DNA of 21,592 nt. It comes from a virus. The notes beneath the pieces were generated by a model. It saw only the letters and a list, made by a program, of their open reading frames with translations, was not told the DNA's origin and searched no databases. The position numbers and the translations under genes were made by a program. Shown here piece after piece: positions 8,822 to 11,069 of this stretch. The stretch's first letter is position 1; the number at the start of each line of letters is the position of its first letter. The stretch spans positions 1 to 21,592 of the IMG/VR virus record IMGVR_UViG_3300035070_003204; one strand, given 5' to 3'.

Positions 8822-9165
8822 TAGTTATATGCTAATATTTCAACCCATCTATCTTGAAAATCTATTATAACTACTGAATGAATAGTATAACTTTCACCTC
8901 TAATCATTAGTTTCTTCGTCTCATGCAAACTAGGTGTTGCCACATCCCTCGTCCATAGCTTCATAACCTTGTTCCACTTCAACCCGCTTTGCTCTAATCT
9001 CCTGCTCCCTCTTTGTGGTTCGGCTATACACTGTATGAAACCTTCTTGCGAATAACCCCTCTGTATGCCGCCACCCGTTACAGGCGTATCAGTTAAACTC
9101 ATAACAGTTACTCTTTCCTTTGCCTTGCCTGCTGTTAACTCAATATTCTTTTTAAATAATCTCAT
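8821..9165 (-). CDS. Head closure/head-tail joining protein (SPP1 gp16-like)
   Basis: 114 aa. Small beta-barrel type protein. The order of strands and the conserved-looking RGESYTIHSVVIIDFQDRWV near residues 89-108 match head-tail joining proteins (Phage_H_T_join; SPP1 gp16/HK97 gp7-like). It is expected to bind under the adaptor ring and close the DNA channel. It overlaps the upstream adaptor stop and the downstream gp10-like start by one base each. Confidence 0.75.
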   Translation of the reverse strand: MRLFKKNIELTAGKAKERVTVMSLTDTPVTGGGIQRGYSQEGFIQCIAEPQRGSRRLEQSGLKWNKVMKLWTRDVATPSLHETKKLMIRGESYTIHSVVIIDFQDRWVEILAYN

Positions 9166-9686
9166 TATGAAATAGCTGGTATTCTTGAATGTTTATTTGC
9201 TAATCTTACACTCGCTGCACATACACCCCTAGTCTCTGTGCTTTCATCCCCTCGCATCTCATACAAGTAAAGTATCTGAGCAAGTATAGCCTGCTTTAAA
9301 TCAAAAGGCACTGTCTCATACCCCGCCGTATATTCTATCTCCATATCCTCATACGTTGGATTCTTTACCTTTATAAAATCCAACCCTATAAACTCTTTAT
9401 TGGCTTCATCAGTAGTATCTGCAAAAGTAGGTGTATTAGTAACTGGCCCGAAAGGCAATTCAATATAACCACACGGATTGCTTATGATAGCTGTTACCGT
9501 TCTTGTTATCAAAGAAAGTTTAGTATATTGCTCAATAGTTTGTGTTGCTGCTTTAATCATTAACGTAATATCTACATCGTCATTAGACAACCCTATCCTG
9601 CAATAATCTTTCGCTTCTTGTAGTGTTACAGGGTATGTGCTACTCTCATCCGTAAACCTTATATCTTGAACAATATTATAACTCAT
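9165..9686 (-). CDS. Head-tail connector/adaptor (gp6-like)
   Basis: 173 aa. The segments YPVTLQEAKDYCRIGLSNDD (residues about 17-36), then DVDITLMIKAATQTIEQYTK, and FDLKQAILAQILYLYEMRGD are the alpha-helical core of HK97 gp6-like adaptors (Phage_gp6_gp15/YqbG-type). The adaptor forms a ring on the portal. A middle region (about 65-125) is beta-rich, with the IEYTAGYETVPFDLK segment common to the family. It overlaps the 3' end of the upstream small gene by 11 nt and the downstream start by one base. Confidence 0.88.
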   Translation of the reverse strand: MSYNIVQDIRFTDESSTYPVTLQEAKDYCRIGLSNDDVDITLMIKAATQTIEQYTKLSLITRTVTAIISNPCGYIELPFGPVTNTPTFADTTDEANKEFIGLDFIKVKNPTYEDMEIEYTAGYETVPFDLKQAILAQILYLYEMRGDESTETRGVCAASVRLANKHSRIPAIS

Positions 9687-9864
9687 TCTTTTTAGGGCTT
9701 TTTCTTACTTTTTTTTCAATAACTATTTCCTTTTCCACCGCTTCAACAAAGCCTTTACTGATTAACTCATTGGCTCTTTCATCCGAATATTCTGCCTTCT
9801 TTCCTGGCATCATTATATTCTTTGTGTCCTTATCGGTGTATGTCTTTATTACTACTATTTCCAT
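9676..9864 (-). CDS. Small head-region protein of unknown function (62 aa)
   Basis: The ATG at 9864 is chosen. A TTG at 9870 would add only two residues and falls inside the tRNA-like stem. The protein starts MEIVVIKTYTDKDTKNIMMP and has a helical part (SDERANELISKGFVEAVEKE) with a Lys-rich tail. Small proteins of this layout (short beta hairpin, then a segment on residues entering an ER..LI.KG..E. helix) are common between capsid and adaptor genes of phages and are usually unannotated. The start codon lies one base after the discriminator position of the tRNA-like element at 9866-9913, so processing there could leave an almost leaderless message. Confidence 0.72.
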   Translation of the reverse strand: MEIVVIKTYTDKDTKNIMMPGKKAEYSDERANELISKGFVEAVEKEIVIEKKVRKSPKKNEL

Positions 9865-9865
9865 G

Positions 9866-9913
9866 AACAAGTGGCGGGATTTGAACCCGCCTTAGTTCCA
9901 TTATTCACTTGTT
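9866..9913 (-). ncRNA. tRNA-like minihelix (acceptor stem + T arm) between capsid and next gene
   Basis: On the minus strand the gap between the capsid stop (9918) and next ATG (9864) contains, in order: acceptor-like 5' strand ACAAGTG (9912-9906), a 15-nt linker (9905-9891), T-stem GCGGG (9890-9886), T-loop TTCAAAT (9885-9879), T-stem CCCGC (9878-9874), and acceptor 3' strand CACTTGT (9873-9867). All 12 pairs are Watson-Crick, the loop fits the T-loop consensus TTCRANY, and the two stems abut as in tRNA. D and anticodon arms are absent; the linker holds a GG (9899-9898) that could meet the T-loop. No CCA is encoded. A register shift by one base gives an equally paired 13-bp variant. It could serve as an RNA-processing site, a capsid mRNA stabiliser, or an attachment-site relic. 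Confidence 0.6.
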
Positions 9914-9917
9914 TTAA

Positions 9918-11069
9918 TTAAGCTACGTTACCTAAGTCAGCGTAGATTAAAGAAGCTGGGAACATTGGGTTCACTTCTTCTAAACACTCTATTCTCGCTG
10001 TGATTAAGTTCTTCTGAACGTTATCAGAATCTTGCTCAAAGAACTCGATTGCGATTGATTCAGCTTCTACTCTCTCTAAGTAATCTCTATCGACAATTAA
10101 GATTTTGTCATCAGTACACCAATCAACTGGGATTATAGGCATACCGCTTATAACCATTGAACCGTCATTGTTAGTTACTACTCCACCCGAACCAGTGTAA
10201 TATCCGTTAACATAAGTTAACTTATTTAAACGAGCTAATTGAGTATGAGAAACAACACCATAAGAAGCTGCGAATTTAGCAGTTCTTTGACTTGCAATGT
10301 AGTCCATTATTTGCTTCACGTCATCAGTCTCAGCAGTTGTAGTTGAACCTGTGGCGGCTGCACTTACTGTTGCAAAGAAACCTGCGTTTTCAGCATTGTA
10401 AAATTCTCTTAATAACAATCTCGGAAGGGTTGACTGTAAGAACGGTAATCCTTTCATTAATTGCTTTGAGAATCTCGCAAAACCTGACATATAAGATGTA
10501 ACTGTTTTAACTTCTGCAAAGTCAAAATCAATTTGAGTTTTTGCATTACCTTCAGTTTGCTTAGAGATAGACCCTTCACCAACACTCTCACGGTCAAATG
10601 CTTGTACTAATGTTTGGCTTACGCTTGTCGGCATTAAATCTCTAAAGTTAACTTTAGTTGATGGAAGGATAGCATTTCTACCGTAACTAATTACGCTGTC
10701 TCCTGTTAAACTTCCTGCAATAGTCATGTTACCTACTGCCTTTAATTCCATCTTATAACGTCCACCTTTTAATACAGTACTCTTTAAGTCATTGTATTGC
10801 TCGGCAACGGTGTCAGAGAAAACTTGACCGAATGATTTAACTTCTTGAACATTCTTTTTATTAGATACTGCTAATTCATCGAATTGCTTTTGCATCTCTA
10901 CTTTGAATGTATCTAAATCTTCTTTGCTTGAAAGATTCTTTAAATCATTCTGTAATTGCTCTGCTAATACTTTAGCTGCTTTACCTTCAACGCTTGAAGC
11001 GTTGGCATTCTCTTTAATGGTCTGAATATTATCAGCCATCTTTTTTATTTCTAATTCTAAATTTTCCAC
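9918..11069 (-). CDS. Major capsid protein, HK97 fold
   Basis: 383 aa from a GTG start at 11069. An ATG at 11039 would give 373 aa (MADNIQTIKENANAS) and is a real alternative. I keep the GTG because it lies 6 nt after the protease stop and the extra residues extend the coiled coil. Residues 1-75 form a helical delta/scaffold domain. The segment near 100-125 (KGGRYKMELKAVGNMTIAGS) is the usual linker before the mature N-arm, so cleavage by the upstream protease probably falls there. The rest follows the HK97 layout, including the spine-helix region around 205-235 and P-domain/A-domain segments such as ISGMPIIPVDW and a C-terminal NPMFPASLIYADLGN. Confidence 0.92.
   Translation of the reverse strand: MENLELEIKKMADNIQTIKENANASSVEGKAAKVLAEQLQNDLKNLSSKEDLDTFKVEMQKQFDELAVSNKKNVQEVKSFGQVFSDTVAEQYNDLKSTVLKGGRYKMELKAVGNMTIAGSLTGDSVISYGRNAILPSTKVNFRDLMPTSVSQTLVQAFDRESVGEGSISKQTEGNAKTQIDFDFAEVKTVTSYMSGFARFSKQLMKGLPFLQSTLPRLLLREFYNAENAGFFATVSAAATGSTTTAETDDVKQIMDYIASQRTAKFAASYGVVSHTQLARLNKLTYVNGYYTGSGGVVTNNDGSMVISGMPIIPVDWCTDDKILIVDRDYLERVEAESIAIEFFEQDSDNVQKNLITARIECLEEVNPMFPASLIYADLGNVA

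Follow-up and report, generated by a model that had tools for sequence, protein, structure and literature searches.

The junction downstream of the capsid gene

The window analysed here is a stretch of viral DNA of 21,592 nucleotides. Its late genes, which encode the terminase, portal, a Mu-F-like protein, protease, major capsid protein (MCP), a 62-aa protein, connector, neck and tail, are all on the minus strand around a short element that occupies the gap behind the MCP gene. The element is on the same, coding strand, between the MCP stop codon (9920-9918) and the next ATG (9864-9862). The features of this region are listed below.

9918..11069, minus strand: MCP gene (phrog_10 major head protein, E = 1e-8; relatives)
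9866..9913, minus strand: whole anticodon-less tRNA-like element (sequence, predicted folds, match to model R1)
9906..9913, minus strand: 5' acceptor strand AACAAGTG, eight Watson-Crick pairs with 9866-9873
9891..9905, minus strand: linker AATAATGGAACTAAG, replacing the D and anticodon arms (sequence)
9898..9902, minus strand: AATGG motif, suggested counterpart of the D-loop G18-G19 (also the D-stem loop sequence of L371 and L373)
9874..9890, minus strand: T-arm GCGGG-TTCAAAT-CCCGC (consensus T-loop; Rfam tmRNA T-arm positions 347-363)
9866..9873, minus strand: 3' acceptor strand CACTTGTT, pairing with 9906-9913
9676..9864, minus strand: downstream 62-aa gene, with its ATG at 9864 (phrog_5279, phrog_2616, phrog_933)
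9165..9686, minus strand: head-tail connector gene, next in the operon (Pfam Phage_connect_1, E = 1.4e-10; phrog_442)

A search with the connector protein, in a collection that may lack records very close to the window, found no relatives. Read 5' to 3' on the minus strand, the junction consists of the MCP stop TAA, TTAA, AACAAGTG-AATAATGGAACTAAG-GCGGG-TTCAAAT-CCCGC-CACTTGTT, C and ATG, so that the stop codon lies 4 nt upstream of the element. The original prediction placed an acceptor/T-arm minihelix at 9866-9913, with a 15-nt linker and a single base (C9865) before the ATG, and the sequence agrees on each count. The perfect 7-bp acceptor and 5-bp T stem that it described are slightly exceeded, as there are 13 Watson-Crick pairs, which can be divided as 8+5 or 7+6.

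The predicted fold is the same on either strand. The minus-strand element folds into the acceptor/T-arm helix at -15.4 kcal/mol (z = -2.7), and this helix is also the minimum-energy fold of the plus-strand copy (-14.8 kcal/mol, z = -3.1). A strict form of the element, with 7 + 5 Watson-Crick pairs, a TTCRANN loop and a linker of 8-24, describes the window element and is expected 3.7e-5 times per window of this composition on both strands, a per-window figure for a window drawn from an uncounted number of windows read. A looser definition had no matches in 400 Markov copies of the window. The element is thus beyond chance, even without counting its placement.

The element is not a recognisable tRNA gene. 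ARAGORN reported no tRNA gene at this position, where the linker is only 15 nt, and Rfam searches gave no RF00005 match to it. Relaxed ARAGORN settings for full or degenerate tRNAs produced false genes everywhere at low thresholds and were uninformative. Rfam sees the T-arm only, as the T-arm of tmRNA (E = 0.012), with 15.5 bits against a gathering threshold of 47. The tRNA-like domain of tmRNA (RF00023) likewise combines an acceptor, a D-loop without an anticodon and a T-arm, but the window element has no mRNA-like domain, pseudoknots or encoded CCA, and its D-loop is much shorter.

Terminators and a second element at the same junction

About 80 MCP relatives were fetched, and 65 distinct post-MCP gaps were compared. 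By a strict definition, 57 of these hold a GC hairpin with a U-tract, and several of the other eight show a hairpin by eye. The window gap therefore holds a tRNA-like element where its kin hold a terminator. The element is not conserved among the MCP relatives of the window, which implies that it is dispensable or exchangeable with a terminator.

This distribution speaks for an alternative explanation, in which the 6-bp GC hairpin of the window is a passive 3' stabiliser or intrinsic terminator that replaces those of the relatives, and its resemblance to tRNA is incidental or convenient. In a loose scan, the window hairpin passes as terminator-like (GGCGGGTTCAAATCCCGCC ACTTGTTCAT). However, while the GC hairpin is present, the U-tract is weak (ACTTGTTC) and interrupted (ACTTGTT). 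The terminators of the capsid relatives occupy the same slot with a U-tract, but have neither a T-loop nor a second long-range helix. Termination would need no T-loop, 7-8 bp acceptor extension or AAYGG motif, yet this set recurs in a second phage, L281, and in unrelated phages with covarying acceptors. We regard the stabiliser or terminator explanation as rather unlikely.

L281, a phage of the same lineage, was found via a terminase search and shares 63% identity with the window in the terminase, 49% in the primase, 53% in the helicase and 33% in the MCP. Both have the gene order MCP, small gene (phrog_933/phrog_2616 in both) and connector. At the identical MCP/small-gene junction, L281 carries AAGGATA-ATGGGAGTATTTA-GAGGGG-TTCGACT-CCCCTC-TATCCTT, the first two bases of which are the last two of its MCP stop codon. 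Its unconstrained fold favours a partly different pairing (z = -1.1), and the L281 acceptor is consequently backed by complementarity and not by energy. L294, with 79% MCP identity to L281, has a terminator in place of the element. A small open reading frame from the ATG of AATGG was considered and rejected on reading, as it is short and differs between the window and L281.

Perfect consensus T-arms are scarce in these phages, with ten in 2.79 Mb on both strands of the capsid and terminase relatives. Four lie in recognisable tRNA genes or in a remnant resembling a tRNA (phi10:1, bacterial contig), and one in a tRNA-Leu-like sequence (L082). The remaining five comprise one internal match repeated in three related contigs (three), the window and L281.

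The post-capsid gap of L227, where the capsid gene ends near 10197, has a three-way junction in place of a terminator (-28 kcal/mol, z = -4.6), built from a 7-bp acceptor-like helix, another arm of 7 bp and a hairpin resembling a T-arm. This fold is possibly another tRNA-like solution in the same slot; without a consensus T-loop, it was dropped as a family member.

A family of elements in other phages

Since the linkers of the window and L281 have (A)ATGG in common, viral contigs were scanned for TAATGG followed by a T-arm, with tRNA genes filtered out. Members of the resulting family have an acceptor of 6 or 7 pairs, a short linker beginning AAYGG and a T-arm, without an anticodon arm. The exact T-arm/acceptor pattern of the window has no matches in the viral contigs, among which records very close to the window may be missing. 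There are five elements in L326 (four of them complete) and three in L339, at successive junctions and each with its own complementary acceptor. Copies with AACGG (L326) and AAAATGG (L339) fall outside the TAATGG search pattern, and some of the copies in these two phages are therefore independent support. The GG is kept in 17/17 aligned members, some of which had been collected by requiring GG in the linker.

The window element has the acceptor helix, AAYGG and T-arm of the family and lies near the upstream stop. It is also matched by model R1 at 35.6 bits (E = 1e-4), followed by L281 (E = 1.6e-3) and a next hit at 0.62 in 816 kb. R1 was built without the window and L281, from candidates found by a pattern abstracted from both, so that membership by this match is partly circular; the model also leaves the 5' acceptor strand of the window out of register.

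At the DNA level, most of the loci show no relationship, the exceptions being the window, L281, L371 and L373. Short DNA matches at the elements themselves link L377 with L392, and L330 with L384. No Rfam family reached its gathering threshold in six element-bearing loci, and no annotated relatives of L326 were found among phage records. Of 16 element-bearing records run through ARAGORN, 15 had no tRNA gene, which indicates that the elements are not parts of tRNA arrays. Short-linker matches within tRNA arrays were mostly chance pairings inside real tRNAs and were left uncounted. A search of the open-access literature turned up no account of elements of this kind; most subscription papers and preprints lay beyond its reach. 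The window element belongs to a recurrent family of phage RNA elements that is apparently uncatalogued.

Cellular genomes were searched for further occurrences of the element. R1 found nothing over 395 genomes, a result of little weight with 16 of roughly 500-2000 first-look candidates per genome scored, and the exact pattern TAATGGTTN{2,8}GGTTCGATTCC was absent from 390 such genomes. The element might also be an attP site, carrying the 3' end of a host tRNA for integration. A tRNA-targeting attachment site had been offered as an alternative in the original prediction; it finds no counterpart with up to 3 mismatches in 395 genomes of the assumed host phylum, taken to be that of a Chitinophagaceae bacterium, which may not be that of the true host. 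Furthermore, the searches made with window proteins recognised no integrase, the element has its 5' acceptor strand, and some phages have multiple copies. One observation in favour of integration comes from Arthrobacter phages, in which an unannotated sequence matching the L392 element lies between two tyrosine integrase genes (L442:4001-4034 in phage Judy). An attP origin is extremely unlikely for the elements described here. The sequence in phage Judy may itself be an attP-type tRNA piece.

Covariation and the D-arm

Pairing was evaluated across the family. The acceptor-blind set comprises 66 matches to TAATGG plus a T-arm outside ARAGORN tRNA genes, among the matches listed, and its pattern ignores the acceptor. 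All six acceptor pairs (6/6) are Watson-Crick in 9 of the 66, against 0.57 expected from random re-pairing of the flanks, with pairs sought within a small register window. Acceptor complementarity across family members is thus beyond chance. In alignment A5, covariation is 0.793, compared with 0.188 when shuffled and at most 0.23 when slid, and 6/6 acceptor pairs have changes on both sides. Because A5 was fitted to the structure and some of its members were collected by pairing, the acceptor-blind test is the cleaner of the two.

L371 and L373 are kin of the window phage, with a shared terminase and, in L371, a shared portal. Their homologous elements have a full D-stem (TCCTTT-G-CCTT-AATGG-AAGG-... 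and TCGTTT-G-ACCT-AATGG-AGGT-..., respectively). All 14 pairs are kept in both, four of them by double changes (one in the acceptor, two in the D-stem and one in the T-stem), and slid partners give none. As the same result is reached by 29 of 500 shuffles of these two sequences, the compensatory changes are supportive but not conclusive alone. The loop of the D-stem is exactly AATGG in both phages, which identifies this motif as the D-loop. The GG of AAUGG is likely to be the G18-G19 partner of the T-loop. Support for the tRNA-like nature originally proposed for the window element therefore goes well past one copy: L281 repeats it at the same junction, acceptors covary across the family, the D-loop-like AAYGG is conserved, and L371 and L373 have the complete D-arm.

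These patterns also bear on whether the elements are decaying relics of phage tRNA genes that were inserted at gene ends and lost their anticodon arm. Remnants of this kind do exist in such phages, including the tRNA-Leu-like sequence of L082 and a third tRNA-like sequence in phi10:1, and the mini element of L212 lies near a tRNA gene. Against decay, the acceptor and T-stem pairing is kept or co-changed where the rest is absent, with compensatory changes that keep pairing in related phages seen once (L371/L373). The five L326 and three L339 copies have one architecture and different acceptors, and the near absence of tRNA genes from element-bearing records also argues against relics. Decay is, on this evidence, a quite unlikely origin.

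Placement at gene junctions

The elements are found at the ends of genes, between two genes that run in the same direction. In approximately 17 of 21 elements with an upstream ORF, the element starts no more than 8 nt from the end of that ORF's stop codon, and in nine or so, the acceptor or the TAA of TAATGG contains the stop codon. The downstream gene starts between 1 and about 55 nt after the element. The flanking genes vary, and include capsid, scaffold and many genes of unknown function, which ties the element to junctions and not to one gene. One copy in L339 is located behind a terminator, which rules out that all copies form the 3' end of the message before them; a 5' element for the following gene is the better explanation of this copy.

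An excised element could instead act in trans, as a decoy or regulator aimed, for instance, at host defences that target tRNA or at enzymes of tRNA processing. A tRNA-like fold without an anticodon, present in several copies in some phages, would suit such a role. However, the junction placement and the overlap with stop codons indicate a role in cis, and a decoy would not need a different acceptor for each copy. We consider action in trans very unlikely.

Several elements are followed by further structures. In L326:10700-13755, a small inverted repeat (of the TTGACAC..GTGTCAA type) and then a Shine-Dalgarno-like sequence come after each element, and similar hairpins trail the elements on the 3' side in L377 and L392.

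The elements are also a source of spurious gene calls. At L339:2999-3298 on the minus strand, the ORF starting MVNAGSIPASLQW reads through a tRNA-like T-arm, and this start is likely a false extension of the gene that starts at MKKMFL.

Proposed function

We propose that the element is a tRNA-like structure, made up of an acceptor helix, an AAYGG D-loop (sometimes with its stem) and a T-arm, that would fold in the mRNA and act there in cis. We put the probability that the elements are cis-acting tRNA mimics at about 0.8. At the element, the message would be cut or capped by host enzymes that recognise an acceptor/T-arm stack. In the simplest case, RNase Z would act on the 3' side and the CCA-adding enzyme after it, with RNase P acting in some members. 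Cleavage on the 3' side and the addition of CCA are properties of these enzymes. The 3' end of the capsid message would then be protected by a tRNA-like structure, and the downstream genes would acquire a new 5' end, almost leaderless in the window, with a presumed effect on their expression. The narrower suggestion that host tRNA enzymes define mRNA ends at these mimics is one we find evenly balanced.

RNase P may cleave the elements, but this is doubtful for the family as a whole, since the 5' acceptor strand or linker holds the upstream stop codon in many members. A cut by RNase P would remove the stop codon in L281, L300, L338, L339, L359, L377, L384, L392 and L404. Cleavage on the 3' side with CCA addition, or passive 3' protection, would fit better, suiting more members. 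In the window, a predicted 5' cut would do no harm, falling 4 nt past the stop codon, and after a cut on the 3' side the leader of the downstream gene would be zero or one base long.

Comparable systems are known. Mitochondrial transcripts are punctuated by tRNAs that lie between genes, next to or overlapping stop codons. These are real tRNAs with anticodons, whereas the phage elements have no anticodon arm. A small anticodon-like arm is present in mascRNA and menRNA, the tRNA-like 3' elements of MALAT1 and NEAT1. With these, too, a long RNA ends in a tRNA-like element, but they are eukaryotic and are likened to the phage elements by architecture. They are reported to use the tRNA-processing machinery (PMC12941219). 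The RNA of E. coli RNase P efficiently cuts model hairpins composed of an acceptor stem, T-stem and T-loop, and the substrates of the enzyme include phage M3 RNA, C4 RNA, pre-tmRNA and some mRNAs (PMC11143913). Such sites in polycistronic mRNAs and in phage C4 and M3 RNA have the same acceptor/T-like stack in a non-tRNA transcript, potentially cut by tRNA enzymes (PMC11143913). They are single cases, whereas the present elements recur at many junctions with a D-loop-like motif and the T-loop consensus.

If the elements are processed, they would represent a general, so far unlisted way for phages to define mRNA ends with host tRNA enzymes, and a counterpart in bacterial viruses of mitochondrial tRNA punctuation. 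In that case, they would also provide RNase P, RNase Z and CCA-adding enzymes with minimal substrates of natural origin. A broader and more tentative idea, to which we lean slightly less than evenly, is that different phage groups punctuate polycistronic mRNA with a dedicated, fast-evolving, anticodon-less tRNA mimic that replaces terminators by recruiting the tRNA maturation enzymes of the host, with a parallel version in other phages apparently derived from the tRNA-like domain of tmRNA.

Other tRNA-like and tmRNA-like sequences

Other sequences of related appearance were encountered. A tRNA-like domain of tmRNA, approximately 67 nt long and with the whole mRNA-like domain missing, occurs at L335:4080-4146, at L328:2366-2432 and from L409:3079 onward. 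CCA is encoded in the L335 and L409 copies, and in L335 and L328 the domain immediately follows a stop codon. With the Rfam tmRNA model (gathering threshold 47), the L335 copy reaches 64 bits, with 310 model positions deleted.

The tRNA-Leu-like sequence of L082 (318-427) has a perfect extended acceptor and T-arm with an aberrant anticodon region, and was missed by ARAGORN. It is situated between two genes, well upstream of the capsid gene. In Cellulophaga phage phi10:1 (L011:1871-1941), the unannotated third tRNA-like sequence lies downstream of the annotated tRNA-Tyr and tRNA-Phe, and its acceptor and T-arm are intact.
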